This document shows, piece by piece, positions 1 through 14,226 of a stretch of DNA of 64,000 bases. This DNA is from Dokdonella fugitiva (GTDB taxonomy: Bacteria > Pseudomonadota > Gammaproteobacteria > Xanthomonadales > Rhodanobacteraceae), in the NCBI RefSeq assembly GCF_014138265.1, contig NZ_JACGXL010000002.1:186001-250000 (forward strand). The letters run 5' to 3'. Position numbers and translations under genes: made by a program. The notes under the pieces were generated by a model that was not told the DNA's origin, searched no databases, and was given only the letters and a program-made list of their open reading frames with translations. Position 1 is the first letter of the stretch. Each line of letters starts with the position of its first letter.

Positions 1-1
1 G

Positions 2-2425
2 CGCATCGCGAGCGCGGGGTACACCCACCTCGACGTGCTCGACGCGGCGAGCGGCGACGTCGTGTGGCAGCGCAGCCTGTCGCGCGTCGGCAACGGCGCG
101 GTCGGCGGCCTCGCCGTCGACGCCAAGGATCTTTACGTGTCGTCGACCCTCGGTGACGGCACCGTGCGCACGCGCAAGTACGGCGACGACGGTGACCTGC
201 AATGGGAGGCGGCGACGCCAGGCGATAGCGGCGGCGTGGTCGCGGCCGGCGCGGGCAAGGTCTATGTCCGCGCCGGGTCTCAGCTGCATGCCCTCGATGC
301 CGCCGATGGCCATGCGGCATGGAGCGACTTCGCCGGCAGCAGCATCGTCCGCCTCGGCGGCGCGGCAGCCGAACCGATCGTCGCCACGGCCTACACCGTT
401 TCGCGCCTTGCTGCTGGCGACGGCAGCACGCGCTGGAGCACGCCGCTCGCCGACATCCGCAGCGTCGACGTGATCGACGATGCACTGCTCGTCGCGACGT
501 CGTCGGTGCGCGCCCGGCTCGACATGGACAGCGGCGCGATCGTCTGGAGCGTCGCTTACGCGGATGGCCCTCGCCTGCCGTTCGGCTTCGGCCCAGGCGG
601 CGGCGCGCAGGCGCGCGTGCTCTCGCGCCCGATCGCGACCGCACCCGGTATCGCGCGTGCGATCGACGAACGCATCGACCTCGCGAGCGGCGCGGTCGCG
701 GCGTCGGTACAAGTAGCTGCGATCGAGCACGGCATCGATACCGCGAGCGTGCTCGACGACGATGGGCACGTGCTCGAGGCCGGCGCGAGCCAGCAGGTCG
801 ATGGGCCGCGCCTGCAACTGCGCGCGATCGACGGCGCGAGCGGCGCCGCGCTGTGGCAGATCGACGACGCCATTGCGTCGCCCGGCGGCGATTTCGCGGC
901 GTCAGTGCTGCGTGCGCGGCCGGCGATCGCGTCAGCGCCCGGCGTCCTCGCGGTCGCCCAGGTCATCGGCGACACCGGCCGATGCAGCAGCAACGCGGGC
1001 TGGGTCCGCGTCGCCGCGTACGCGAGCGCGAACGGCGAGCGACGCTGGGCGAGTTGGCTGCGCGATGCCGACGCGTCGTATTGCCCCTACGTATCCGAGC
1101 CCGTCGTCGACGACGCGGGCAACGCGTTCGTCTCCGTGGTGACGCTCGTCGCCTGCCAGACGCCGAGCCTCGGCTGCCAGCGGCGAACGCTCTACAAGCT
1201 CGGCGCGTCCGACGGAGCGGTGCTCTGGCGCCACGACGAAGGCCTCGACGCGGGCATGGAAGGCCTCGTGCTGTCGCCGCACGTACTCGCGTCGAGCGGC
1301 GGCGGCGACGTCGTCGTTCCAGGTGGCTTCCTCGACAACCAGGCGAGCGCCCTGCGCGTGTCCGGCGCCGACGGCTCGGTCGTGTGGAGTTCGCACGTGT
1401 TCGACGGGCTCGCACTCGGCGACGCGCTCGATCGCCTCGGCGACGGCTCGTTCATCGCCTACGCCGGCGCCGACTCGAGTTATTCCTGGGCGCGCCTCGA
1501 TGCCGCGACCGGCGCAGCTGCGTGGACGAGTACGGCGCCATGGGTGCCGTGCTACGGCGCGGGCTGCAGCGGCTACGGCACGGCGCTGTTCCTGCCCGGC
1601 GACGACAAGCTCGTGCCGTTCCAGCGCGACTACGCGCCATGGCTCAAGCGCCAGCACGACGACGGCAGCGGCCTCGTCGACGAATGGATGCTCGGCGATG
1701 CGTCGCCGATCCTTTCCTCGTGGGTGCGCCAGGTCCTGCGTGACCCAAGCGGGCAACTCCACGTCTACCTGCGACGCGGCCATCGCTTCACGGGCTCGGT
1801 GAGCTTCCTCGCTGCGCTCGATGCGCAGGGCAACCTGCTCGGCCAGCAGGCGTTCTATCCGTACGACGCCGATCCGCTTGATGCGTGGTCGTATCCCGAG
1901 CCGCTTGCGATGCCTGCGCCGGACCGCGTGCTCGCGCGCACGCTTGCGGCGCGGCCGCCACTGCCGACGACGTCCGGCGTCGCGTTGTTCGACACGAGCG
2001 TGACCGCTCGCGGCAACCTCGCGGTCGCGCTCGATACCGACCGCATGCGCGTGGGCGCGGACATGCCGCTCACGTTCCACCTGCGCGTGACCTACACGGG
2101 CGACGCGCCGGTCGCAGGCGCGCGCCTCGTCGCGAACCTGCCATGGGCGAGCGGCATCACCGGCGCGACCTGTGCGGTGCAGTCGGGCGGCGATTGCACG
2201 CTCGACACGCGAACCGGCAACGTGCGCGCGACGTTCGATCTCGCTCCGGGCGGCACGGTCGACGTGTCGGGTTCCGTGCGCGTGCTCGACGCCGACAGGG
2301 AAACGCCTGCGATCACCGCGACGACGTACGGCCCGACCGGGCTCGCCGAAGCCGACACGATCGACAATTTCGCGCGCATCGATGTGATCCAGAGCCTGTT
2401 CGTCGACGGCTTCGACGGCGACTAG
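2..2425 (+). CDS. Secreted PQQ-like beta-propeller protein, 5'-truncated by window edge
   Basis: The reading frame is already open at base 2 and continues upstream, so the true start lies outside the window; a GTG at 35 is internal. The protein is built from repeated blade-like units with D-G/A-x-G-x-x-x-W signatures (for example ASGDVVWQRS, DGHAAWSDF, DGAVLWRHD), typical of PQQ-type eight-bladed propellers. These are often used for binding or scaffolding rather than catalysis. After the propeller comes a DUF11-like beta-sandwich containing VARGNLAV, then the terminal LFVDGFDGD. Four or more Cys suggest an extracytoplasmic, disulfide-bonded protein. It is a tandem paralogue of the gene starting at 2567: the propeller, sandwich and C-terminal tag align throughout. 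No catalytic residues can be assigned and the role is unknown. Confidence 0.85.
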   Translation, partial: RIASAGYTHLDVLDAASGDVVWQRSLSRVGNGAVGGLAVDAKDLYVSSTLGDGTVRTRKYGDDGDLQWEAATPGDSGGVVAAGAGKVYVRAGSQLHALDAADGHAAWSDFAGSSIVRLGGAAAEPIVATAYTVSRLAAGDGSTRWSTPLADIRSVDVIDDALLVATSSVRARLDMDSGAIVWSVAYADGPRLPFGFGPGGGAQARVLSRPIATAPGIARAIDERIDLASGAVAASVQVAAIEHGIDTASVLDDDGHVLEAGASQQVDGPRLQLRAIDGASGAALWQIDDAIASPGGDFAASVLRARPAIASAPGVLAVAQVIGDTGRCSSNAGWVRVAAYASANGERRWASWLRDADASYCPYVSEPVVDDAGNAFVSVVTLVACQTPSLGCQRRTLYKLGASDGAVLWRHDEGLDAGMEGLVLSPHVLASSGGGDVVVPGGFLDNQASALRVSGADGSVVWSSHVFDGLALGDALDRLGDGSFIAYAGADSSYSWARLDAATGAAAWTSTAPWVPCYGAGCSGYGTALFLPGDDKLVPFQRDYAPWLKRQHDDGSGLVDEWMLGDASPILSSWVRQVLRDPSGQLHVYLRRGHRFTGSVSFLAALDAQGNLLGQQAFYPYDADPLDAWSYPEPLAMPAPDRVLARTLAARPPLPTTSGVALFDTSVTARGNLAVALDTDRMRVGADMPLTFHLRVTYTGDAPVAGARLVANLPWASGITGATCAVQSGGDCTLDTRTGNVRATFDLAPGGTVDVSGSVRVLDADRETPAITATTYGPTGLAEADTIDNFARIDVIQSLFVDGFDGD

Positions 2426-2430
2426 GTCCG

Positions 2431-2457
2431 GCGGCACGCGCGAAGGCGGCGTGCCGC
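2431..2457 (+). terminator. Hairpin after the first propeller gene
   Basis: Nine-base perfect arms GCGGCACGC (2431-2439) and GCGTGCCGC (2449-2457) enclose a 9-nt loop just 3' of the stop codon. No T-run follows, so it may be a Rho-independent-like pause site or a transcript-end stabiliser. Confidence 0.4.
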
Positions 2458-2566
2458 TGCTACGATTCCACATTGCGCCGTTCTTGGCGTGGTCCCCGTT
2501 CAGCGAACCCGCTCTCGCCGGGCGCTGCGCGCTTTCCAATCCGACATGCTGCAAGGATTTTCGAAC

Positions 2567-5500
2567 ATGCGGTCGACATCCCACTACCGCTGCTCGGCGC
2601 TCGCCTTCGTCGCTGCCTTCATCCTCGCAGGGGCGATCGACGCCCGCGCGGATGATGCATGGAGCAACCCGTGGCATGCGTCGGCGCCGCCGACGCTGTC
2701 CCCCACGCAGGCGCTCGGCAAGCCGCAAGTCACCGTCGGCTTCGCTGCCGACGGTGACGTGCTGCTGAGCGGCCACACCTTCACCGGCGTGGACGGCACG
2801 CTCACGCGCGTCGCGGGCGACGGCAGCCTGCGCTGGAGTTCCAACGTCCGTTCGACTGCATCGCTGTTCGCCTCCGCAGTGCAGGCCGACGACGGCGGCG
2901 CGATCGCCGCGTTCGGCTCGAGCGAGGGTGTGAGCCGGGACGATGGCAATTTCCTCGTGCGCTTCGACCCATCGGGCGCCCGCCGCTGGTCCCGCTTCAT
3001 TGCGACCGGATGGCTTGCACGCGTCGGTGCGACTCGGCTCGCGAATGCAGGATGCGCGACCCTGACGATGCTGGACGTGGATTCGGGCGACGTGCTCTGG
3101 CAGCGCCCTTACGGTGCGCCCGATTGGGATTGTCGCGGTGGCGGTCTCGTCGGTGACGGCGCGGGGAATCTGTATGCCGCATTCGAGATCCCGTCGGGAG
3201 TCGGCGCGATTTCCGGTTCGCGCCTGGTCCGCATCGACGCGGACGGCCGCGAAGCCTGGAACATCGCGGTCGCGGGCAGCGGCATCCGTTCCGTGCCGGG
3301 AACGGTCGGGTCCATCGTGCTCACGACGGATGCGACGACGATCCAGGGCCGCTCGATCGCGGACGGCCATGTCGTGTGGCAGGCCGCCATCGGCAACGGC
3401 GAGCGCGTCCTCGGCGTAGTGGGCGCGAGCGGCGATCCGGTGCTGGTGTCTTACGGCTCGATCCGCGTGCTCGCTGCAGCGAGTGGAGACGAGCGCTGGT
3501 CGCAGGCGGCCCACGTCACCGGCGCCGACATCGTCGGCGGCGCGCTGATCGTCGCCGGCGACTCCACGCTCGAACGGCTCGACGCCGCCACCGGCACGCA
3601 GGCATGGAGCACGGCGTTCACTGACCCGATCTGGTTCGGCGCAGGCGGCTACGACGGCACGACCTTCGCCATCGTGAGCACGAGCGCATGGCTGCAACCG
3701 CCCACGGTGTCGCGCTTCGATTTCGCGAGCGGCACCACGACGAGCACGCCGACGGCGCCGCCGATCGCGCAGCCGGTCGAGGGATCGACCGCGTTCATGG
3801 CCGACGGCCGCGCTCTCGGCATCGGTGTCACCGGGAAGGGCGGCGACTATGCGATCCACCTTCGCGCCCTCGACACGCCGACGGGCACGACCGATTGGGA
3901 AGCCGTCGACCCGGGCAACAGTTTCTCGTACCGCGACTGGACCGGTGTCGCCGAACCTGCCGTCGCGGCCGACGCCGGCGCGATCGCCGTCACGCTGCAA
4001 GCCTACTGGGGATTGGACGAATGCCCATACACGTTCACCCAGGCGTATCCCGTATCGCTGTATCGGGCATCGGACGGCGCGAGGACCTGGCAGGTCTCGC
4101 TCGCGGATCCGCAGGGGCTGTCCCGCTGCAGCCGCGTGTCGCGCCCGCGCCTGGACGGCGCCGGTGACGCTTTCGTCGCGGTCGACGAGTTCCGGCAATG
4201 CCCGCTTCCACTGGGCGGCTCGTGGGGCTGCGGCCGCAACACCGTGTACAAGCTCGCGCGCACCGATGGCCACGTGCTGTGGCGCGCGGACGACGACACG
4301 CGCACGGGAGATCCCGACCGCTGGTCGATGGTCGGCGACGACGTGCTGCGCTATGGGCCATTCGCGGGCTCGACCGACACGATCCGCCGGATATCCGGCA
4401 CGGACGGCCACGTGCTGTGGTCGTCGACCGTGTTTTCGGGCGATGGCATTTCCTCCGAAGTTCATCGCATCGACGACACCCACGTCGTGGTGTTTCCACT
4501 GTTCTACGGATCGGGACAATGGGCGCTGCTCGACACGTCGACCGGCGCGACGACCTGGCTCGCGGACGCCGGCCCGCAGAGCTGTCCGTATCCGGCCTGC
4601 TATGACGCCGCCGGCGTCGTGCTGCCGGGCGGCGACCTGCTCTATCCGGCCCAGCGCGACTACGGCATGGCGGTGAGGCGCCTGCACAACGACGGTTCGG
4701 GCACGATCGAGACGCGAATCGTCGGGCCGAACGATCCGTCGCTCATCTCCGGCCTGGGGCACTTCGTCGCCGATGCCGGGGGTCAGTGGCATGCATTCCT
4801 CTCCCGCAGGTTGCGGCGCGCCGCGCACGCGTCGCCGGCCGGCAGCGTGGAGTTCATAGCCCCGTTCGACCTCGCCACGGGCATCCTGGGTGCACAACAG
4901 GCCGTTAGCGCCTTCAACGGCGACGCGGACGACTGGTCTCTGTTGCAGTGGTTCGATTGGCAGGCGGACCCGCTCGACTCGCTGCGGATGCCGGACGGCG
5001 ACCACCTGCTCGGCAGCGCCATCGAGAAGCAGGCGCCTGCGCCAACCACGGCATCGACGCGCATGATCGACCTCACGGTGACCGCACGCGGCGATCTCGC
5101 CGTTCACGTCGACGTCGATCGCACCCAGGTCGCGCCAGGCGATCGCGTGTCGTTCGTGCTGCGCGCGACCTACACTGGCGACGCACCGATCGCAGGCGCG
5201 CACCTCGCGGCGATGCTGCCGTGGTCGAGCGGCGTCGCCGATGCGACCTGCGTCGTCCAGTCGGCGAGCCAGTGCGAGCTCGACGTCGCCTCGGGCAACG
5301 TCAATGCGACGTTCGACGTTGCGCCCGGCGGTTCGATAGAAGTGCACGGCAACGTGCGCGTGCTCGACATCCCGGCGATTCCGCTGCTGTCGGCGATGGC
5401 GTACGGCCCGACCGGCCTCGCCGAGCAGGATACGATCGACAACTTCGCCGGCGTCATGCTCGCCCAGAGCCTGTTCGTCGACGGTTTCGACGCGCCCTGA
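2567..5500 (+). CDS. Secreted PQQ-like beta-propeller protein with DUF11-like domain and LFVDGFD tail
   Basis: The ATG at 2567 is chosen because it is followed by a clean signal peptide (MRSTSHYRC, hydrophobic ALAFVAAFILAGA, then ARADD) and preceded by AAGGA about 10 bases upstream. The in-frame ATGs at 2489 and 2546 would bury the signal peptide. The mature part carries W-containing propeller blades (DGSLRWSSN, SGDVLWQRP, DGHVLWRAD, DGHVLWSST) followed by a DUF11-like sandwich and the C-terminal LFVDGFDAP. Cys pairs occur in the later blades. It is a tandem paralogue of the upstream truncated gene, about 140 bp apart and probably arising by duplication. Function unknown; an exported or surface-associated beta-propeller is the safest description. 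Confidence 0.85.
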   Translation: MRSTSHYRCSALAFVAAFILAGAIDARADDAWSNPWHASAPPTLSPTQALGKPQVTVGFAADGDVLLSGHTFTGVDGTLTRVAGDGSLRWSSNVRSTASLFASAVQADDGGAIAAFGSSEGVSRDDGNFLVRFDPSGARRWSRFIATGWLARVGATRLANAGCATLTMLDVDSGDVLWQRPYGAPDWDCRGGGLVGDGAGNLYAAFEIPSGVGAISGSRLVRIDADGREAWNIAVAGSGIRSVPGTVGSIVLTTDATTIQGRSIADGHVVWQAAIGNGERVLGVVGASGDPVLVSYGSIRVLAAASGDERWSQAAHVTGADIVGGALIVAGDSTLERLDAATGTQAWSTAFTDPIWFGAGGYDGTTFAIVSTSAWLQPPTVSRFDFASGTTTSTPTAPPIAQPVEGSTAFMADGRALGIGVTGKGGDYAIHLRALDTPTGTTDWEAVDPGNSFSYRDWTGVAEPAVAADAGAIAVTLQAYWGLDECPYTFTQAYPVSLYRASDGARTWQVSLADPQGLSRCSRVSRPRLDGAGDAFVAVDEFRQCPLPLGGSWGCGRNTVYKLARTDGHVLWRADDDTRTGDPDRWSMVGDDVLRYGPFAGSTDTIRRISGTDGHVLWSSTVFSGDGISSEVHRIDDTHVVVFPLFYGSGQWALLDTSTGATTWLADAGPQSCPYPACYDAAGVVLPGGDLLYPAQRDYGMAVRRLHNDGSGTIETRIVGPNDPSLISGLGHFVADAGGQWHAFLSRRLRRAAHASPAGSVEFIAPFDLATGILGAQQAVSAFNGDADDWSLLQWFDWQADPLDSLRMPDGDHLLGSAIEKQAPAPTTASTRMIDLTVTARGDLAVHVDVDRTQVAPGDRVSFVLRATYTGDAPIAGAHLAAMLPWSSGVADATCVVQSASQCELDVASGNVNATFDVAPGGSIEVHGNVRVLDIPAIPLLSAMAYGPTGLAEQDTIDNFAGVMLAQSLFVDGFDAP

Positions 5501-5564
5501 CGCCCCGTCGCGCAGGCGACCCTCCCGCCCTGCGCGCATCCGGACCGGCATGACTTCCGGCAGG

Positions 5565-5593
5565 TTGCATCGGCCGCATCGATCTACTACAAC
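5565..5593 (+). promoter_or_regulatory. Candidate promoter of the blaI-M56 operon
   Basis: TTGCAT (5565-5570), a 17-base spacer and TACAAC (5588-5593) form a plausible sigma-70 promoter. The -10 lies inside the palindromic operator, so bound repressor would block RNA polymerase. Confidence 0.45.
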
Positions 5594-5612
5594 TGTAGTA
5601 CTACGACTGTAG
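5585..5612 (+). promoter_or_regulatory. Tandem BlaI/MecI-type operator
   Basis: The first unit is the dyad TACTACA-AC-TGTAGTA (5585-5600), matching the TACA/TGTA half-site logic of BlaI/MecI/CopY repressors. The 14-mer tactacaactgtag (5585-5598) is repeated immediately as tactacgactgtag (5599-5612) with one mismatch, giving two adjacent sites. It ends 7 bases before the repressor's first ATG, so autorepression is the natural reading. Confidence 0.75.
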
Positions 5613-5619
5613 AGAGTGG

Positions 5620-6015
5620 ATGCCGATGGCGCGGACGAAGGACGTCAGCCTCAGCGAGCTGCAGATCGCGCTGATGCGCGTGCTGTGGCGGCGCGGCGAA
5701 GCGAGTACGGCCGACGTTGCCGCCGAGCTCGGCGATGCACGCGGCCTCAAGCACACGACCGTCGCGACGCTGCTCACGCGGCTCGAAAAGCGCGGCGTCG
5801 TCGAGCAGCGGCGCGACGGTCGCCAGCTGCTCTATCGCGCGCTCGTCGACGAAGCCGACGTGCGCCGCTCGATGGTCGACGACCTGCTCGGCGCGCTGTT
5901 CGGCGGCGACGCGCGCCAGCTCGTCGCGCATCTCGTGCAGGAATCGGAGATCGCACCCGGCGATCTCGCCAAGGCGCGGCGCAGGCTCGCCCGCGGAGGT
6001 CGCGATGAAGATTGA
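5620..6015 (+). CDS. BlaI/MecI/CopY family transcriptional repressor
   Basis: A 131-residue winged-helix protein of normal family length. The N-terminal half (about residues 8-75) has the family pattern: a LSELQIALMRVLW helix, DVAAEL, then KHTTVATLLTRLEKRGVV as recognition helix and wing. The C-terminal half is the helical dimerisation region. An in-frame ATG at 5626 is an alternative start and is better spaced from the weak GAGAG ribosome-binding sequence. Family members repress their own operon and are inactivated by proteolysis triggered by the partner M56 sensor protease. The gene overlaps that partner by 11 bases and sits directly behind a tandem operator of the expected type. Confidence 0.9.
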   Translation: MPMARTKDVSLSELQIALMRVLWRRGEASTADVAAELGDARGLKHTTVATLLTRLEKRGVVEQRRDGRQLLYRALVDEADVRRSMVDDLLGALFGGDARQLVAHLVQESEIAPGDLAKARRRLARGGRDED

Positions 6016-8350
6016 TCCGTTCGTCGCCTGGCTGCTCACGTTCGCGCTGCACGCGGGCGTGATGCTCTCGATCGCATGGACGCTCGATCGCACGATCCTG
6101 CGCCGGCTGCCGGCGTGGCGCGAACTGCTCTGGCGCGTCGCGCTGTTCGGCGGCGCGCTCAGCGCGAGCGCGCAGCTCGCATTGTCGTCGCCATTCGCGA
6201 CGCGACTCGCGTTCGAGCGCGGGGACGGTTCGCCCGCAGCGCAAGCCGCGGCTGCGCCGGTCGACGACGCGCGTGCGAGTACCGCACCGCGCACGGCGGT
6301 CGCGCCGGCCGACGCGCGCCCTGCATCCGCACCTGCGCACGCGCGCGCCGCCGGCGCCGCGCTCGCCGGCAACGACGCCCCGCACGACACGCTCGCGCGC
6401 CTCCGGCCGGGCTGGCCGCGCGTGCTCGTCGCGACGTGGCTCGCTGGCGCGCTGCTGCTGCTCGGACGGCTCGGCCTCGCCTGGCTCGGCCTCGTGCGCA
6501 CGCTGCGCGACGCGACGCCGCTCGAGGACGCGGCGCTCGCGCGCGACGCCGACGCGCTCGCGCGCGCTGCGCACATCGCCGCGCCGCGCCTTGCTGCACT
6601 CGCCACGCTGGCGAGCCCGATCGCCGCACACGGTCGCCGCATCGCCCTGCCATGCTGGGCACTGGAATTGCTCGACCGCACACAGCTGCGCGCGATGCTC
6701 GCGCACGAAACGGCGCACCTCGCGCGGCGCGATCCCGCGTGGAAGCTCGCGACCGCGGCGTGGTGCGCGCTGCTCTGGTTCCTGCCGCTCGCGCCGCTGG
6801 CACGGCGACGCCTCGACGAGATCGCCGAACTGTCCTGCGACGCGTGGGCCGCGCGCCACCTGGGCGACGGCCGCCCGCTCGCCGAATGCCTCGCCGAATG
6901 CGCGAGCCGCCACGTCGGGTGCGACGACCTCGCCCTCGCGCCGGCGATGGCGCAGCGCGAGTCCCCGCTCCTGCAACGCATCGAACACCTGATCGAAGGC
7001 CATCCGATGAACACGACTCCTTCGCGCCTGCGCGCGTTCGCGGCGACCGCCGCGCTGATCCTCGCCGCCGCGCTGCTGCCCGGTTTCACCGCGGTCGCGC
7101 AGACTTCGCCGCCGGCTCCGCCGGCCCCACCCGCGCCGCCTGCACCTCCGGCGCCGCCGGCGCCACCGAAGGAGGGCCCCTCGCGCATCCATATCTCGAA
7201 CGACGGCGGCGCACTCGGCCAGTCCACCTACGTCGAGGTCGGCGACGGCGATCGCGAGTACCGCGCGCGCATCAAGGGCAAGATCGTGTTCAGCGATCGC
7301 GACGACGACGTCGCCAGCCTCGTCGACGGCGGCAGCGCGATGTTCGAGGAGTCCGCGCCCGGCCTGGAACGGCGCGTCGAGTACCGCAGCAGCGGCGGCA
7401 AGCTCGTGCAGCGCTACTTCGTCAACGAGCGCGAGCAGCCGATCGACGACGCCGGCCGCACTTGGGTCGCCGGCGCGATCGCCGGCCTCGTGCGCGAGAG
7501 CGCGCTCGGCGCCGACGCCCGCGTGAAGCGGATCCATGCGGGCGGCGGAGCGGACGCCGTGCTCGACGAGATCGCCCGCATCCAGTCCGGCTACGCGCGT
7601 GGCGTCTACATCAAGCTGCTCGCCGGGCTCGGCCACCTCTCCGGCGCGCAGGTCACGCGTGCGATCGGGCTCGTCGACGGCATCGATTCCGACTACGAGA
7701 AGCGCAACGCGCTCGGTGCGCTCGGTTCGGCGCAGCCGTTCGACGCCGCACAGCAGAAGCTCGTCGTCGCGCAGGCGCGGAAGATCGGGTCCGACTTCGA
7801 GCGCGCCGAGCTGCTGACCGGGCTGTTGCCGTCGCTCGCGCCGGACCCGTCGCTGCGCGCGGCGTGGCTCGCCGCCGCGAACGGCATCGGCTCGGACTTC
7901 GAGCACCGGCGCACGCTGACCGCACTGCTCGCCTCGCACGAGGTCGACGACGCGACGCTCGCGACGGTGATCGACGCGTCGACGACGATCGGCTCCGACT
8001 TCGAGCGGCGCAGCCTGCTCGTCGACGCGGTCGGCCGCGTACGCGACGCCGAGCGCGTCGCCTCCGCGTACGCCGCGGCGAGCGCGCAGATCGGTTCCGA
8101 CTTCGAGCGACGCGAGGCGCTGCTCGCGCTCGTGCATGCACCGAAGTTCGGCGCTGGCGGCGCGCGCGCGGTGCTCGACGCCGCCGGCTCGATCGGCTCC
8201 GACCACGAGTGCGGCGAGGTGCTCGTCGCGCTCGCCGGCGTGATGCCGAACGACGCCGACCTGATCGCGCGCTATCGCAGCGTCGCGCGCAAGCTCGGCG
8301 ACGTCGAGCGCGGCGAAGCCGAGCGCGCACTCGACCGCTTCGCGGGCTGA
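6005..8350 (+). CDS. BlaR1-like M56 membrane metallopeptidase with six 34-residue repeats
   Basis: The start ATG at 6005 lies inside the repressor's end and is followed by a membrane helix (FVAWLLTFALHAGVML). The N-terminal half is an M56 domain with several membrane spans, the zinc motif HETAH at residues 234-238 and the third-ligand region EIAELSCD (272-279). A further hydrophobic helix near 340-360 leads to a proline linker of repeated APP (about 368-388). Instead of the penicillin-binding sensor of BlaR1, the C-terminus carries six repeats with the core I-[GD]-SD-[FY]-E, in exact 34-residue register. By family logic it senses an envelope signal and cleaves the repressor; the inducer is unknown. 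Confidence 0.85.
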   Translation: MKIDPFVAWLLTFALHAGVMLSIAWTLDRTILRRLPAWRELLWRVALFGGALSASAQLALSSPFATRLAFERGDGSPAAQAAAAPVDDARASTAPRTAVAPADARPASAPAHARAAGAALAGNDAPHDTLARLRPGWPRVLVATWLAGALLLLGRLGLAWLGLVRTLRDATPLEDAALARDADALARAAHIAAPRLAALATLASPIAAHGRRIALPCWALELLDRTQLRAMLAHETAHLARRDPAWKLATAAWCALLWFLPLAPLARRRLDEIAELSCDAWAARHLGDGRPLAECLAECASRHVGCDDLALAPAMAQRESPLLQRIEHLIEGHPMNTTPSRLRAFAATAALILAAALLPGFTAVAQTSPPAPPAPPAPPAPPAPPAPPKEGPSRIHISNDGGALGQSTYVEVGDGDREYRARIKGKIVFSDRDDDVASLVDGGSAMFEESAPGLERRVEYRSSGGKLVQRYFVNEREQPIDDAGRTWVAGAIAGLVRESALGADARVKRIHAGGGADAVLDEIARIQSGYARGVYIKLLAGLGHLSGAQVTRAIGLVDGIDSDYEKRNALGALGSAQPFDAAQQKLVVAQARKIGSDFERAELLTGLLPSLAPDPSLRAAWLAAANGIGSDFEHRRTLTALLASHEVDDATLATVIDASTTIGSDFERRSLLVDAVGRVRDAERVASAYAAASAQIGSDFERREALLALVHAPKFGAGGARAVLDAAGSIGSDHECGEVLVALAGVMPNDADLIARYRSVARKLGDVERGEAERALDRFAG

Positions 8351-8363
8351 ACCGGTGGCAACC

Positions 8364-8389
8364 ACGGCGGCGCGTACGCGTGCCGCCGT
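8364..8389 (+). terminator. Hairpin after the M56 gene
   Basis: ACGGCGGC (8364-8371) pairs perfectly with GCCGCCGT (8382-8389) across a 10-base loop, 13 bases beyond the stop. It lacks a T-run, so termination is only suggested. Confidence 0.35.
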
Positions 8390-8436
8390 CCGGCCGCGGG
8401 TGCATGCTTCACGGCGCACCCTCGCGGAGAATCCTG

Positions 8437-8841
8437 ATGAACCGCCTCCCGATCGCCTGCGTGCTCGCGGCGTGCTGCCTCGCCGCCGCCAGCGCGCACG
8501 CCGACACGCGCGAGACGCAGCGCGAGAACCTCGAACGCTACACGCCGTACCTGCAGGATCCGGTCGACGCATTCCCGTTCTGGAACCTGCACAAGTGGCA
8601 GCTCGTCGGCCCGCTCGAGGTGGTCGTCTGGTCGACGATCAAGGACGCCTACCTCGTGCAGGTGCGCGCGCCGTGCCCGCGCCTCGAATGGGCGCGCTCG
8701 ATCGCGGTCACCTCGAAGCAGTCGCACCGGGTGAGCGCGCGCTTCGACGAAGTGCGCGTCGGCGGCGCCCGCTGCCCGATCGAACGGATCCGGCCGATCG
8801 ATCTCGCCCGCATGGCCGCGGAGCGCGAGCGCGCGCCCTAG
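8437..8841 (+). CDS. DUF6491-like secreted protein
   Basis: The ATG at 8437 is preceded by GGAGA at 8426-8430 and opens a signal peptide (MNRLPIACVLAACCLAAASAHA), giving a 134-residue precursor. The mature part has W-x-L-V-G-x-LEVVVWST, AYLVQVRAPCPRLEWA and ARCPIERIRPID. These resemble the lysobacterales family annotated DUF6491, whose two Cys probably form a disulfide. The family is common in Xanthomonadales envelopes and has no established function. The gene stands alone between the M56 gene and the copper protein. Confidence 0.75.
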   Translation: MNRLPIACVLAACCLAAASAHADTRETQRENLERYTPYLQDPVDAFPFWNLHKWQLVGPLEVVVWSTIKDAYLVQVRAPCPRLEWARSIAVTSKQSHRVSARFDEVRVGGARCPIERIRPIDLARMAAERERAP

Positions 8842-8929
8842 CGCCACGATCGACCACGGCGACGCAACCTTCCGGCGCGCCGCCGGTACCCACGCATGAA
8901 TGCCCGCCGCCACCCGTACGGAGTCCATC

Positions 8930-10123
8930 ATGCGCATGCGCATCGCGTTTTCCATCCTCTGCCTGTTGTTCGCCGGCCTGGCGCAGGCGGAGAACCATAC
9001 CGTCACCGTCAGCAGCAATCGCTTCAGCCCGGCGCAGCTGACCATCCAGGTCGGTGACACGGTCACGTTCACGAATGCGGGCGGCTTCCACAACGCCTCC
9101 GCCGACGACGGCTCGTTCCGCTGCGCGCAGGGTTGCGACGGCGTCGGCAACGGCAACGGCAATCCGAGCAACACGGCATGGAGCGCGGTGGTGTCGTTCG
9201 ACGCGGCGGGCGTGCATCCGTACCGCTGCGAAGTGCATGGCGACATGGGCATGACCGGCACGATCACCGTCGAAGGCACCGCGCCGGCCGGCTTCAACAT
9301 GAACCAGCACGGCATCGCCGGCTCCTGGGCCAACACCGCCACCGAGTCGCAGGGCATCGTCATGGACGTGTTCCCCGACTTCTTCTCCGCCGGCACCGGC
9401 CTCCTCTTCGGCGGCTGGTTCACCTTCGACACCACCGCCGCCGGCGGCGTGCGCTGGTACACCGTCCAGGGCCAGGTCACCCACGACGACACCGCCACCA
9501 TGGCCGTCTTCCAGACCCTCGGCGGCAGCTTCGATTCGACCCAGGCCACCACCACCAACGCCGTCGGCCAGGTCACCTTCCACTTCGACGACTGCACCCA
9601 CGCCAGCCTCGACTACACCTTCTCCGACGGCTCCGGTCGCCACGGCACCATCCCGCTCACCCGCCTGCTCGACAACCTCGCCTGCACCCCGACCGGCACC
9701 ACCCCGGGCAACCCCGGCAACTACCTCCTCGGCGGCACCTGGTCCGATCCGGCCAACAGCGGCCAGGGCCTCGTCTTCGACGCCAATTCCGCCCAGGGCG
9801 TGCTGTTCGCCGCCTGGTACACCTACCTGCCCAACGCCGCCGCCGATGCCGGCGCACCCGCCCAGCACTGGTACACCCTCCAGGTCGCCGTCAGCCCCGG
9901 CTTCACCACCGTCAACGACGTCGGCATCTACGAGTCCACCGGCGGCGTCTTCGACCAGCACGCCACCACCACCACCACCCGCGTCGGCACCGCCACCCTC
10001 ACCTTCAACAGCTGCACCTCGCTGACGATGACCTACGCCTTCACCGCCGGACCCCACGCCGGACTCACCGGCACCCTCGACCTCGGCCGCCTCGCCCCCG
10101 TCCCCGCCGGCTGCTCGCTCTGA
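8930..10123 (+). CDS. Blue-copper (plastocyanin-like) protein fused to two copies of an unknown ~120-residue domain
   Basis: The ATG at 8930 follows GGAG at the right distance and precedes a signal peptide ending in LAQAEN. Residues about 20-115 are a cupredoxin fold with the type-1 copper ligands visible: His in GGFHNAS and the C-x3-H-x4-M cluster in YRCEVHGDMGM. Two related domains follow, each starting with a G-[ST]-W motif (GSWANTATESQGIV; GGTWSDPANSGQGLV) and continuing with a WYT-x-Q-x-x-V segment, a TTT run, and an F-x-x-C...Y-x-F-x-x-G pattern. Codons in the duplicated part end almost uniformly in C, unlike the GCG-rich neighbours. It is probably a periplasmic electron carrier or copper binder; the role of the domains is unknown. 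Confidence 0.8.
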   Translation: MRMRIAFSILCLLFAGLAQAENHTVTVSSNRFSPAQLTIQVGDTVTFTNAGGFHNASADDGSFRCAQGCDGVGNGNGNPSNTAWSAVVSFDAAGVHPYRCEVHGDMGMTGTITVEGTAPAGFNMNQHGIAGSWANTATESQGIVMDVFPDFFSAGTGLLFGGWFTFDTTAAGGVRWYTVQGQVTHDDTATMAVFQTLGGSFDSTQATTTNAVGQVTFHFDDCTHASLDYTFSDGSGRHGTIPLTRLLDNLACTPTGTTPGNPGNYLLGGTWSDPANSGQGLVFDANSAQGVLFAAWYTYLPNAAADAGAPAQHWYTLQVAVSPGFTTVNDVGIYESTGGVFDQHATTTTTRVGTATLTFNSCTSLTMTYAFTAGPHAGLTGTLDLGRLAPVPAGCSL

Positions 10124-10130
10124 ACGATTC

Positions 10131-10162
10131 CCACCGGCGCGCGATCACTCGCGCGCCGGTGG
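10131..10162. terminator. Shared hairpin between convergent genes
   Basis: The 13-base arms CCACCGGCGCGCG (10131-10143) and CGCGCGCCGGTGG (10150-10162) are perfect, with a 6-nt loop. The hairpin covers the stop codon of the minus-strand dehydratase and follows the plus-strand copper gene by 7 bases, so it can serve both. No T-run is present. Confidence 0.55.
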
Positions 10163-10606
10163 CTTCGCGATGACCGCGGCGCGCCCGCGCGCGAGCACGA
10201 CGCCGTCGTGCTCGACGCGGAACGCGTACTGCCAGCTGCCGCCGCCGCCGAGCAGGCACTCGGCATGCACGTCGAGGGGGCGCGGCAGGTCGTCGATGCG
10301 CTCGACCTCGAGTTCGACCCCGCGCAGCGAAACCAGGTAACCCGGAGCGGCAGCGCCCCCCGCGGCGCGGGCGACGAGCCCGCCGTGCACGGCCATCGCC
10401 TGGGCGCCGTACTCGCACAGATGCAATGCGCGCAGGCGGCCGTCGCTTCGCAAGGGATGGTCCACGCGCCGGTGCGACGACGTGCGCATGTGGATCAATG
10501 CCGCATCCCACGCCACGACGTCGTCGAGCAGGCACATCGCGCCTGCGTGCGGGATGAGCCGGCGCCAGTCGTCGTGCGCCGGCGCGGGGTTGTCCGGTTC
10601 CTGCAT
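10145..10606 (-). CDS. FabZ/ApeP-like 3-hydroxyacyl-ACP dehydratase (hotdog fold)
   Basis: The frame from the ATG at 10606 gives 153 residues. It begins with LIPHAGAMCLLDDVVAWDA, the usual opening of the hotdog dehydratases of aryl polyene and xanthomonadin clusters, in which the His is catalytic. It continues with EYGAQAMAVHGGL, the hotdog helix with its acidic catalytic-type residue, and ends in the beta-strand AYAFRVEHDGVVLARGRAAV-like region. By family it dehydrates ACP-bound 3-hydroxyacyl intermediates during polyene chain growth. Three unrelated genes separate it from the pigment locus at 14232-22106. Divergent from the regulator at 10676. Confidence 0.75.
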   Translation of the reverse strand: MQEPDNPAPAHDDWRRLIPHAGAMCLLDDVVAWDAALIHMRTSSHRRVDHPLRSDGRLRALHLCEYGAQAMAVHGGLVARAAGGAAAPGYLVSLRGVELEVERIDDLPRPLDVHAECLLGGGGSWQYAFRVEHDGVVLARGRAAVIAKPPARE

Positions 10607-10658
10607 GGTGCGCCTCGATCGGAGCCGCCGATTATGCCTGCGCGGTGCCGCCACGATC

Positions 10659-10675
10659 CGCGCTAACCTAGCGCG
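10659..10675 (+). promoter_or_regulatory. Palindrome and -10-like element abutting the regulator's start codon
   Basis: CGCGCTA-ACC-TAGCGCG is a perfect dyad whose last base directly precedes the ATG at 10676. TAACCT (10664-10669) sits where a -10 box would if transcription started at the A of the ATG. No ribosome-binding sequence is present, so a leaderless mRNA, possibly repressed through the dyad, is likely. Confidence 0.4.
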
Positions 10676-12985
10676 ATGGCAACACCGTTGATTCGCTTCG
10701 GCGCTTTCCGGCTCGATCCGCAGGCACGCGAGCTGTTCGAGAACGGGGAACGCGTCGATCTTCCGCTCAGCACGATCGAATGCCTCATCCACCTGATCCG
10801 CCATCGCGACCGCCCGGTCGGGCGCGACGAACTCGCATCCGCGGTCTGGGGACGCGTCGACGTCAGCGAGGTCTCGCTGAGCCACGCGATCGTGCGCCTG
10901 CGTCGCCGCCTCGGCGACGACGGCAATGCGCAGCGCGTGATCCGCACCGTGCCGCGACTCGGCTATCGCTGGGTCATGCCCGACACGGTCGAGGAGCCGG
11001 CGGGCGAAACGCCAGCGGTGGCGGCGGACGCCGTCGCCGTGGCCGCGCCGCCCGCGCGCGGCGGGCTCGCGATCGCCGTGTTCATCGTCGGCGCCACCGT
11101 CGCACTCGCCTTCGCCGTGTTCGCCTGGCGCATGCACGAACGCACGCCGGACACCGCGCCCCCGCCAGCGAACAGCGCGCTGGTGCTGCCGGTGCGCGTC
11201 GACGCGGGCGCGGAATGGGCCTGGCTGCGCCTCGGCCTCATGGATCTCGTCGCGACCGAGCTGCGCCGCGGCGGTCTCGCGACGACGCCGAGCGAAACCG
11301 TCGTCGCGCAGGTGCAGGCCCGCGGCGAAGACGGCGTCGACCTGCCCGCCGCCTGGCGCGTGACGCCGCACGTCGCGCACGAGCACGCGCAATGGCACGT
11401 GCGACTCGACGTGCACGGCGCTACGCGCGATCTCGCGATCGACGCGCGCGCGGCGGACCCGTTGCGGGCGACGCGCGACGCGACCGACGAGCTGCTGATC
11501 AAGCTCGGCCGCACGCCGCCCGCGGACGACGGCGACGACGACGCGCTCGCCGCGGCGACCCTGCGCCAACGCGCGCACGCCGCGCTGCTCGCGAACCAGT
11601 TCGACGTCGCGCGCCGGCTCGTGGAGCAGGCCGCGCCCGGCTTGCAGGCGAGTCCGGAGATCGCGCTGATCCGCGCCAAGCTCGCGTTCTACTCGGGCGA
11701 TTACGAGGGCAGCCGCCGGCAGGCCACCGAGTTGTTCGCGCAGTTGCCGCCGGGCGCGGACGCCGGCTTGCGCGCGCGCGTCGCCAACACGCTCGCGTCG
11801 GCGCATTTCAGGCTCGCCCGCCTCGACGACGCCGAGCGCGTCTACGCCGATGCGATCCGCATCGCGCAGGACGCGCACGAGCCGGACGTGCTCGCGCACG
11901 CGTACCTCGGCCGCGGTGGCGTGGCGAGCCAGCGCGTGCGGCTGGAGGCAGCCGCAGCCGATTTCGGGCGCGCGCGCACGCTGTTCGAAGCCGGCAACGA
12001 TCCGCTCGGCGTCGCCGCGATCGACCTCAACCTCGCGATCAACGCGATGCAGCGCGGCCAGCCGGCGACCGCGCTGCCGCTGCTCGAACGCGTGCGCACG
12101 CGCCTGCGCGCGCTCGCTGCGGTCGACGCGCTCGCCGCGACCGAGGTGACGATCGTCGAGGCGCAGCTCGTGCTGCTCGACCACGACGGCGCGCTCGCGA
12201 CGAGCGCGGCGTTCGTCGCGCCCGACAACGAGAACGGCAATCCGCGCCGGCGCTGGCAGTTCACCTTCGCACGCGCCGCGGCGCTCGCCGGCAGCGGCCG
12301 CCTCGACGAAGCCGACCTGCTGCTCGCGCGCCTGCGCGACGCGAGCGACCCGGACGCCGACGCGATCGCGCGCGCGCTCGCCGAATCGCTGTCCGGCGAG
12401 ATCGCCCTCGCGCGCGGCGAGCCTGCGCGCGCGGCCGAGTACGCCGCCGGCGCGCTCACGCCCGTGCTCGCCGCGTTCAACCGCGAGCAGTACGTGCAGG
12501 CCTGGTGTGCGCGCATCCGCGCCCTGCAACGCGCCGGCGCGGTCGCCGACGCCGCAGCCGAGATCGAGCGCCTGCGCGCGCAGGTCCTCGCGCCCGGTGA
12601 CGGCGCCATGGCCGACCCCGGCGCCGAGGTGCTGCTCGCGCTCGCGGGCGCGGAACAGGCGGAAGCGGAGCGGCGTCCCGAACTCGCGCTGCAGCATTAC
12701 GCGGACGCGATGGCGCGCGCGACCGCGCGCGCGGTCCCCGAGGAACTCGTGCGCGTCGGCGCGCCGTACGTGCGTGCGCTGGTCGCCGCGGGTCGGGTCG
12801 ACGAGGCCGCCTCCGTGCACGGTCGCATCGCCGCCTGGGCCGACCGCGACCTGCGCGCGGCGTGGAGCGCGGCGCTCGTCTACCACGCGCTCGGCCAGGC
12901 CGCCGCCGTCGACGCGTCGCTCGCGCGGGCGCGCGCGCTCGCCGGCCAACGCAGCATCGCCGCGCTCGAAACGGCCGTGCGCTGA
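10676..12985 (+). CDS. OmpR-type winged-helix membrane regulator with TPR region (CadC-like)
   Basis: A 769-residue protein. Residues about 5-100 are an OmpR/PhoB winged helix (FGAFRLDPQARELF, VSLSHAIVRLRRRLGDD, VIRTVPRLGYRWV). There is no receiver domain. One membrane helix (AIAVFIVGATVALAFAVFAW, about 130-150) follows, then a long Ala/Leu/Arg-rich helical region of TPR-like pairs (for example YADAIRIAQDAHEPDVLAHAYLGRG). This architecture matches CadC/ToxR-like one-component regulators that sense at the membrane and bind tandem DNA repeats. Three TACAT motifs spaced 11 bp just downstream are a candidate target. The start lacks a ribosome-binding sequence, suggesting a leaderless transcript. 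Confidence 0.85.
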   Translation: MATPLIRFGAFRLDPQARELFENGERVDLPLSTIECLIHLIRHRDRPVGRDELASAVWGRVDVSEVSLSHAIVRLRRRLGDDGNAQRVIRTVPRLGYRWVMPDTVEEPAGETPAVAADAVAVAAPPARGGLAIAVFIVGATVALAFAVFAWRMHERTPDTAPPPANSALVLPVRVDAGAEWAWLRLGLMDLVATELRRGGLATTPSETVVAQVQARGEDGVDLPAAWRVTPHVAHEHAQWHVRLDVHGATRDLAIDARAADPLRATRDATDELLIKLGRTPPADDGDDDALAAATLRQRAHAALLANQFDVARRLVEQAAPGLQASPEIALIRAKLAFYSGDYEGSRRQATELFAQLPPGADAGLRARVANTLASAHFRLARLDDAERVYADAIRIAQDAHEPDVLAHAYLGRGGVASQRVRLEAAAADFGRARTLFEAGNDPLGVAAIDLNLAINAMQRGQPATALPLLERVRTRLRALAAVDALAATEVTIVEAQLVLLDHDGALATSAAFVAPDNENGNPRRRWQFTFARAAALAGSGRLDEADLLLARLRDASDPDADAIARALAESLSGEIALARGEPARAAEYAAGALTPVLAAFNREQYVQAWCARIRALQRAGAVADAAAEIERLRAQVLAPGDGAMADPGAEVLLALAGAEQAEAERRPELALQHYADAMARATARAVPEELVRVGAPYVRALVAAGRVDEAASVHGRIAAWADRDLRAAWSAALVYHALGQAAAVDASLARARALAGQRSIAALETAVR

Positions 12986-13000
12986 GCCGAACCACGCGCA

Positions 13001-13027
13001 TACATATCCGATACATGGTTTTTACAT
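13001..13027 (+). promoter_or_regulatory. Three TACAT repeats with 11-bp spacing
   Basis: TACAT occurs at 13001-13005, 13012-13016 and 13023-13027, an exact 11-base period in an AT-rich patch of an otherwise GC-rich gap. OmpR-type winged helices bind direct repeats spaced by about one helical turn, and such a regulator is encoded immediately upstream. The downstream target would be the HAF-repeat gene. Confidence 0.45.
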
Positions 13028-13095
13028 GCCGTCCGCGCCGGCTTCGCGGATGGTCGGGACCGCGCGACCTGCCGCTCCCCGCTTCCGAGGTTCCG

Positions 13096-14226
13096 ATGAT
13101 CCTGCGTTCGACCCGTTCCGCCCCATGCCGGCTTCGCCTGCCGGCGGCCATCCTCACCGTGGTCGCGAGCGCACCCGCGCTCGCCGGCACCCCGGCGCCG
13201 CTGTACCACCTCGTCACGCTCGACGCCCCCGGCGGCAGCGCGATCGCCGCGCACGACATCAACGACGCCGGCCAGGTCGTCGGCCGCTACCTCGACGCCG
13301 GGTTCAACGGTCGCGCCGCGCTGTGGGACGCCGACGGCACCCTGCATGACCTCGCGCTGCCCGGCCTCGGCGACGGCGAGGCCGACGCGATCAACAACGC
13401 GGGGCAGATCGTCGGCGCGTTCAACGACTACCAGAACCCGCAAGCCGGCCTGCTGTGGGATCCGGGCGTATCGGCGCAGCCGCTCGTGCTCACCGCCGAC
13501 GCGGGTGCGTTCGTCGCGCCGCTCGACATCGGCGACGGCGGCGAAGTCGTCGGCGGCTACGGCCAGCCCGCGCAGGAGCGCGCGTTCGTCTGGACCGCGG
13601 CGACCGGCCTCGTCGACTACGGCCTGCAGGACGCGAACATGCAATTCCAGCAGGCGCGCTGGTCCGCGGTGAACGCGAGCGGCGTGCTGGTCGGCCATTG
13701 GAACCAGCATTCCTCGAACGTGCACGCGATCATCGGCCAGGTCGGCAGCGCGAGCGTGCAGTCGATGAGCAGCATGACCGAAGCGTTCGCGAGCATCGCG
13801 ACCGCGGTCAACGACGGCGGCGTCGCCGTCGGCCTCGGTCTCGCGGCCGCGGCGCCGGAGCTCGTACCGGTGGTGTTCGCCGCCGACGGCAGCTACAGCG
13901 AGATCGCCGGCGCGACGCTCGACCAGGACAACGGCTGCGCCGCGGCGATCAACGCCGCCGGCGTCATCGTCGGCAGCGCCGGCATCGGCACCGCGAGCGG
14001 CTGCGTGCCCGGCCTCAAGGCGTGGGTGCTGCGCGACGGCACGGTGTACGACCTCTACGACGTCGTCGACGACCACGGTCCGTTCGCGAGTTTCCAGATC
14101 GGGCGCGCGATCAACGCCGGCGGCGTCATCGTCGGCACCGGCCTCACCGCCGACCACGAGACGCTCAGTTTCAGGCTCGTGCCGATCGCCGGCGATCCGG
14201 TGTTCGCCGACGGCTTCGACGGCTGA
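13096..14226 (+). CDS. Secreted HAF-repeat protein with C-terminal VFADGFDG
   Basis: The ATG at 13096, preceded by CGAGG, gives 376 residues with a signal peptide (MILRSTRSAPCRLRLPAAI...APALA). The body repeats the HAF-type unit: DINDAGQVVGRY, AINNAGQIVGAF, AINAAGVIVGSA, AINAGGVIVGTG, about 45-50 residues apart, each with an associated W or L-W strand. Such repeats form extracellular beta-structures of unknown role. The last residues VFADGFDG match the LFVDGFD endings of the two propeller proteins at the start of the window. It is likely a secreted or surface protein, possibly controlled by the adjacent winged-helix regulator. Confidence 0.8.
   Translation: MILRSTRSAPCRLRLPAAILTVVASAPALAGTPAPLYHLVTLDAPGGSAIAAHDINDAGQVVGRYLDAGFNGRAALWDADGTLHDLALPGLGDGEADAINNAGQIVGAFNDYQNPQAGLLWDPGVSAQPLVLTADAGAFVAPLDIGDGGEVVGGYGQPAQERAFVWTAATGLVDYGLQDANMQFQQARWSAVNASGVLVGHWNQHSSNVHAIIGQVGSASVQSMSSMTEAFASIATAVNDGGVAVGLGLAAAAPELVPVVFAADGSYSEIAGATLDQDNGCAAAINAAGVIVGSAGIGTASGCVPGLKAWVLRDGTVYDLYDVVDDHGPFASFQIGRAINAGGVIVGTGLTADHETLSFRLVPIAGDPVFADGFDG

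Follow-up and report, generated by a model that had tools for sequence, protein, structure and literature searches.

A short, mostly C-terminal motif on exported proteins of Lysobacterales as a candidate sorting signal for a second type II secretion system

Short C-terminal signals that recur on many unrelated exported proteins are known from several bacterial sorting systems, among them close counterparts of the element described here. GlyGly-CTERM, paired with rhombosortase and exemplified by VesB of V. cholerae, marks proteins carried by a type II secretion system (T2SS) (PMC12369372, PMC11980579), and MYXO-CTERM, paired with myxosortase, is a clade-wide tag on dozens of proteins per genome whose surface display is reported to be T2SS-dependent (PMC11980579). 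The present element was noticed in a stretch of 64,000 nucleotides from Dokdonella fugitiva (contig NZ_JACGXL010000002.1, positions 186,001 to 250,000; hereafter the window), in which an initial annotation claimed the shared ending F-x-DGFD for three otherwise unlike secreted proteins and took it for a sorting, retention or processing signal.

In anatomy, this tag departs from both systems. GlyGly-CTERM is tripartite, with a membrane helix and a basic tail, whereas the tag has neither, and rhombosortase (TIGR03902) scored above its cut-off in none of 25 tag-rich genomes of a 50-genome panel, hand-picked from 397 Lysobacterales genomes and spread over families (25 with at least 21 tag matches, 25 tag-poor with at most 9). 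MYXO-CTERM combines an invariant Cys with a membrane helix and an Arg-rich terminus, and none of these features is conserved in the tag (across 92 tags, positions -8 to +5 show no conserved Cys). The recognition elements of individual T2SS clients offer a further comparison: a 9-residue loop of PelI (loop 3) contacts GspC and GspD (PMC7949064), and recognition of VesB, through its Ig fold, needs the PDZ domain of EpsC, the GspC protein (PMC12369372). In both, what brings a folded periplasmic protein to GspC/GspD is a short stretch that is exposed or flexible. Such elements are protein-specific and described as structural, whereas the tag is one linear motif on about a hundred proteins. Client recognition by T2SSs is an open question, and one recent source states that a linear 'universal secretion signal' is lacking (PMC12369372). 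Clients of the T9SS, for comparison, carry a folded C-terminal domain and depend on Por/Spr machinery. Among open PMC texts, we found no paper naming such a tag, and six six-letter spellings of it were absent.

A genome-wide tag on exported proteins

The tag is genome-wide, with about a hundred copies as against the three first noticed: FxDGF[DE] matches the DNA of the 4,770,069-base genome 122 times, and the reversed control pattern twice. Among 100 of the 122 matches that were listed, 83 are C-terminal (79 by an automatic test and four by eye, namely L048, L119, L120 and one on contig C2), so that the position claimed for the tag holds for most copies and fails only as a strict rule. On contig C2, which holds the window (971,959 bases, 788 genes by our own gene caller), 19 of 22 F.DGF[DE] matches start in the last 31 residues, a zone comprising 8.4% of residues (binomial p 5e-18 over the 788 predicted proteins). 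The excess over the reversed pattern, together with this C-terminal bias, rules out a chance origin. The coding DNA of 92 tags comprises 76 distinct 21-mers, a variation that rules out a DNA repeat and identifies the tag as a protein motif.

The consensus was derived from 92 tagged proteins, 60 of them strict matches outside C2 and 32 strict or relaxed matches on C2, where 33 of the 788 proteins are tagged once variants such as FANGFD, FADGYD and YANGFD are allowed (one C2 protein truncated by a tile boundary was left out, hence 92 of 93). It reads D-x-[ILV]-F-x-[DN]-G-F-[DE], roughly nine residues, and is followed by 0-6 further residues in 82 of the 92. The core was selected by the search pattern (F in 90; any residue, with A in 41; D in 81 or N in 11; G in 92; F in 87; D in 63 or E in 29), while positions -3 and -1 were not part of it and still carry D in 77 and I, L or V in 91 proteins, respectively. 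By blastp, the bodies of these proteins form 53 clusters of at most 15 members, and their Pfam and NCBIfam domains include beta-helices, FG-GAP, delta-60, HAF, DUF11, subtilase, GSDH, PC-phospholipase C (PC-PLC) and M36-like domains, among others; C-terminal placement on many unrelated exported proteins, a feature of CTERM-type signals, is observed here as well. Searched with ten C-terminal tails at E values up to 10, NCBIfam gave no model that matched the tag as such, and the tag is apparently unnamed in that collection.

The link to export was assessed by a signal-peptide heuristic on C2, which was positive for 17 of 19 tagged and 212 of 769 untagged proteins (Fisher p 5e-8); the enrichment that the initial annotation had proposed as a check is therefore present. 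Both misses, the HAF-repeat protein of the window and C2:389750, have starts that look signal-peptide-like by eye. Cytoplasmic proteins, put forward in the same annotation as the counter-test, account for one of the 100 listed places (L115, which reads by eye as a NUDIX protein), with one more place in a doubtful frame (L054).

Equally informative are the protein families in which the tag takes turns with other endings. The choice_anch_Q (choice-of-anchor Q, NCBIfam) domain occurs in 15 of the 92 tagged proteins, and in 25/25 tag-rich as against 7/25 tag-poor panel genomes. Thirty panel-genome loci were fetched, of which 27 had the domain in frame (frames being anchored on the motif): in 13, the C-terminus is the tag or a near variant of it (e.g., FKNGFE, FADGYE, FADGFQ), in one a degenerate version (IFKNSFE), and in five (G170, G050, G060, G028, L363) a hydrophobic segment with Arg, while eight show neither type, are cut off or are unclear, with the proteins of tag-poor G031 and G092 stopping just past the domain. 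As judged from these endings, the tag is exchanged with other C-terminal anchors on shared domains, and it alternates after choice_anch_Q with PEP-CTERM- or IPTL-CTERM-like C-termini, signals associated with exosortase. M36 peptidase models named for rhombosortase- and for myxosortase-dependent proteins match two tagged proteins each, and the model of a MYXO-CTERM-anchored family matches one tagged protein of this genome. For PC-PLC (TIGR03396), searched separately over 200 genomes and found in tag-rich and tag-poor genomes alike, C-termini could be read at 29 of 30 fetched loci; only those of this genome (G000; ..SDPAYGEQPQQRIFADGFEPAMR) and of G011 (..SDPAFGAREEMLFTDGFEQAA) are tagged, both genomes having the second T2SS described below, whereas the 27 others end untagged at or past the same conserved site, and the thirtieth (G051) shows no tag either. 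In these two proteins the tag is, on this comparison, appended after the conserved end of a complete domain.

Across the 397 Lysobacterales genomes, tag matches number 0 to 151 per genome, and the highest count is 11 among 276 genomes from the class, 272 of which lie outside the order. In GTDB, a scan for the complete tag followed by a stop codon gave at least 80 loci, which among the matches listed are mostly labelled Dokdonella, Marinicella, Tahibacter, Pseudofulvimonas, Lysobacterales and unspecific metagenome-assembled genomes (MAGs). Also among the matches listed, one 'Bacillota' and one 'Alcanivoracaceae' MAG (L266, L275) carry the full tag, through misassignment or real spread. The same endings were read at fifty loci of other families, where tags likewise occur after signal peptides (L185, L188) and, in Marinicella litoralis (G035), in tandem at one C-terminus (L174, L179; ..IFLDGFEGDVIFKNGYD and ..IFEDGFDPFIDLIFIDGFE); the D at -3 is often absent in family f4. 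Family and genus labels such as f1, f2 and g34 are those of this analysis, without Latin equivalents.

Co-distribution with a second T2SS

The genome under study carries two T2SS loci. One, here termed T2SS-A (L397, C7:78000-97999), comprises trxA, rhlB, a Ser/Thr kinase gene, an extracytoplasmic function (ECF) sigma factor gene, a gene for a 503-aa protein, gspC, gspD, gspE, an unknown gene, gspF, ftsE and ftsX; the other (L424) is Xps-type by its gene order, E-F-G-H-I-J-K-L-M-N-D. Within the panel, two GspD proteins score above the cut-off in 25/25 tag-rich genomes, as against two or more in 5/25 tag-poor ones. In a tree of 80 GspD sequences, each of the 25 tag-rich genomes contributes one GspD to a single clade of 29 rows (SH-aLRT 99), as do four tag-poor genomes, G028 and G080 and, on long branches, G057 and G180, while GspD proteins outside this clade are present in tag-rich and tag-poor genomes alike.

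A profile built from the 25 tag-rich sequences of this clade (A2) extended the comparison to all 397 genomes, 94 of which scored E <=1e-219, six only as contig-edge fragments, 43 at intermediate values (1e-186 to 1e-127) and 254 more weakly or not at all. When T2SS-A is called from a best E <=1e-219 or a high-scoring contig-edge fragment (G143, G332, G119, G105, G129, G139), and the 43 intermediate genomes are counted as lacking it, its GspD is found in 75 of 82 genomes with at least 10 tag matches (five of them only as fragments) and in 25 of 315 with fewer; with fragments left out, the figures are 70/82 and 24/315. By genus, T2SS-A is present in 28 of 31 tag-rich and 4 of 64 tag-poor genera (Fisher p 1.5e-16, uncorrected for kinship). 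Within families, tag-rich and tag-poor genomes compare as 4/4 vs 0/21 in f1, 3/3 vs 0/30 in f2, 1/3 vs 1/9 in f8 and 5/5 vs 2/2 in f10. The initial annotation had suggested looking for co-occurrence with a single transporter or protease family, and the tag does occur together with one transporter type, this second T2SS.

Changes along the tree point the same way. On a 47-row tree of the other GspD (rows L429, L461, L462 and L470 left out, and G057, with its long-branch clade-A row, counted as without T2SS-A), tag status changes five times and T2SS-A four times, and four changes coincide (G051, the tag-poor f1 clade, G078 and the tag-poor f2 clade); in G028 and G080, tags are lost and T2SS-A is kept. 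The tag thus appears to track an old second T2SS across the order, a link that is correlative.

The T2SS-A loci themselves show a recurring context. Among 23 T2SS-A segments read, 15 contain rhlB and/or trxA (one of these, in G010, with no gsp gene called) and 12 contain ftsE and/or ftsX. In this genome, the domains recognised in the T2SS-A GspC are T2SSC and PDZ, and the XpsN of L424 gave no Pfam match. In four Dokdonella-type genomes, the product of the gene next to gspC bears the tag (G282, G101 and, with two such genes, G229) or, in this genome, a decayed version of it: the delta-60-like 503-aa protein (L397:7091-8602) reads DDTIFRYGAE here and DDTIFRDGFD in L472, also of Dokdonella fugitiva, and its tag in this genome seems, from the two readings, to be decaying. 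Among tagged genes in 20-kb segments around T2SS-A, the one pattern seen was this gspC neighbour in Dokdonella-type genomes; the tag filter also flagged one GspE end, which was discounted. Full clusters with pseudopilin genes are found in T2SS-A-positive, tag-poor G207 (L488) and G285 (L489) and in G180 (L406), the last with a rhombosortase above cut-off beside gspC and two flanking rhomboid-like genes. All three genomes have almost no tags, and the GspD of each cluster groups with T2SS-A or scores like it; the clusters have the look of a separate T2SS that may have been acquired.

Both near tagged genes and near T2SS-A, Dokdonella-type and Marinicella genomes repeatedly show a pair consisting of an ECF sigma factor (TIGR02999 in L397) and a repeat-bearing Ser/Thr kinase (L397:3884-7013; L469:13603-16990; L471-L473; L237, L273, L278, L294). 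Clustering of the neighbours of tagged genes returned mostly antisense artefacts besides this pair, which is perhaps a regulator of tagged genes and T2SS-A.

Candidate exporter and competing explanations

The position of the tag, the company it keeps, its exchange with anchors, its gain on PC-PLC and its parallel loss fit a mark on proteins destined for T2SS-A. We therefore favour, with a probability of about 0.6, a reading in which the tag is a short linear signal, usually C-terminal, by which Lysobacterales sort signal-peptide-exported proteins and which is read by T2SS-A. Tagged proteins would reach the periplasm via their signal peptides and fold there; the exposed, flexible tag would then be bound by periplasmic parts of this second, ancient system (gspC-D-E-F, often beside trxA-rhlB and ftsEX), and the client would be passed through its GspD to the surface or the medium, the tag setting T2SS-A clients apart from proteins that the cell sends through its ordinary Xps-type T2SS. 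We infer that export runs through T2SS-A and that the tag is bound by GspC/GspD, perhaps at the GspC PDZ domain; VesB and PelI serve as precedents for such recognition. Of the three roles proposed in the initial annotation, sorting is thus supported, by inference from sequence, and nothing found points to processing. The broader proposition, that a general, portable linear T2SS signal exists as a nine-residue motif on about a hundred proteins of unrelated folds, read by GspC/GspD of a dedicated second T2SS, probably ancestral to Lysobacterales and co-lost several times, is more tentative, and we rate it slightly short of an even chance.

Several observations weigh against T2SS-A as the reader of the tag. 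Five of the 100 listed places lie directly after a signal peptide (L033, less surely, L039, L047, L116, L138), and ten are internal or stand ahead of a lengthier tail in proteins that look exported (L031, L032, L057, L060, L121, L125, L131 and three on C2). Genus g34 of f10 (15 genomes) has the usual T2SS-A locus and 0-8 tag matches, a real exception, and seven genomes with at least 10 tag matches lack a match to the T2SS-A GspD (the fragmented MAGs G047, G109 and G114; G058, G088 and G133 of f8; and G395). Other genes may share the distribution of T2SS-A, as few families were compared (five in all, PC-PLC included), and exosortase (PF09721) is likewise commoner in tag-rich panel genomes (13/25 vs 4/25). 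Tag-poor genomes likewise have GspC proteins with PDZ-like ends; the presence of a PDZ domain therefore explains nothing by itself, and specificity would need its groove or another site. No pseudopilin genes were found beside T2SS-A in the segments of tag-rich genomes, which hold gspC-F alone, and a complete T2SS-A is therefore not established. The full nine-residue form is also weak outside Dokdonella and G002, with three copies in G050, four in G082, seven in G004 and none in G187, counted with a pattern that omits some codons.

Foremost among the competing explanations is a surface-retention or docking peptide: tagged proteins would be exported by any route, for example Xps, and held by a partner on the cell surface, with T2SS-A as part of the same surface programme. 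Placement after signal peptides, between domains and in tandem (G035, L174, L179) would suit such a peptide, as would the fact that the tag occupies the place of surface anchors in other clades; yet no partner was found, and the parallel changes with T2SS-A would need a separate reason, so that we consider this explanation unlikely, at roughly one chance in five.

Considerably less probable is a structural origin, in which the motif would act as a structural cap or form the opening strand of a beta-sandwich, a remnant or a product of domain shuffling with no part in sorting. The tag may resemble a beta-sandwich start of the form 'FxDxFESGD..W', and the internal tags of L131 and C2:644740 directly precede beta-sandwich-like domains. 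However, the tag ends many unrelated kinds of protein, is kept in orthologues while later residues vary, follows complete domains such as PC-PLC, and tracks a transporter.

Recognition by an intramembrane sortase, as with PEP-CTERM or GlyGly-CTERM, is largely refuted and very improbable, a novel soluble peptidase being still conceivable. Host domains are the same as those of CTERM proteins, and the exosortase frequencies given above favour it; against this, the tag lacks the helix and basic tail of PEP-CTERM and IPTL-CTERM, a hydrophobic stretch appears in the last 60 residues of only 2/92 tagged proteins, with none ordered as motif, helix and basic tail, exosortase (PF09721) gave no match in the four own-genus panel genomes, this genome included, which have 89-151 tag matches, and rhombosortase above cut-off is confined to the tag-poor half of the panel (3/25). 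On these grounds an exosortase or rhombosortase signal was rejected. A mark that commits proteins to protease-driven processing or turnover in the periplasm, a role that short terminal peptides can play, is equally improbable in view of the internal and N-terminal copies.

Should T2SS-A read the tag, a short portable peptide, with about a hundred clients occurring naturally in a single genome, would bear directly on how T2SS clients are recognised, with a built-in control in the Xps-type T2SS of the same cells. It would also provide a predictor of the surface and secreted proteome of Dokdonella, Marinicella and their relatives, and possibly a short export tag for folded proteins. Even with another exporter, a helix-free sorting tag that dozens of proteins carry in each genome, and that spans many families of one order, seems new to the open PMC literature.

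The tagged proteins of the window and their neighbours

All three endings reported in the initial annotation are real and lie on the + strand. The first belongs to a PQQ-type beta-propeller protein (PQQ_2, Pfam; 1..2425) with a DUF11-like C-terminal part, whose 5' end lies ahead of the window at contig C2:185543; its tag, LFVDGFD plus GD (2396..2422, stop 2423-2425), fits the genome-wide consensus. The second ends a related PQQ-type propeller with a signal peptide (PQQ_2; 2567..5500) as LFVDGFD plus AP (5471..5497, stop 5498-5500). The lead-in TIDNFA claimed for both propellers is present in each, and both have signal-peptide-like starts by the heuristic (C2:185543 and 2567); a search for relatives of the second propeller returned none.

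The third belongs to a HAF-repeat protein (HAF_rpt, TIGR02913, E 2e-12; 13096..14226), which ends in VFADGFD plus G (14200..14223, stop 14224-14226). Its start was called at 13159 and is preferred by eye near 13096, where an ATG gives MILRSTRSAPCRLRLPAAILTVVASAPALA, read as a signal peptide where the heuristic returned none. The ends of the three proteins are covered by no Pfam or NCBIfam match. In all best orthologues of the HAF protein (seven other genomes, 46-82% identity), the tag is kept and the residues after it vary.

The neighbouring genes were assigned by eye. A BlaI/MecI-like regulator (5620-6015) is followed by the gene of an M56-type membrane peptidase with a Pro-Ala run (6005-8350), and a winged-helix regulator of OmpR type with a membrane segment and repeats (10688-12985) lies directly upstream of the tagged HAF gene.

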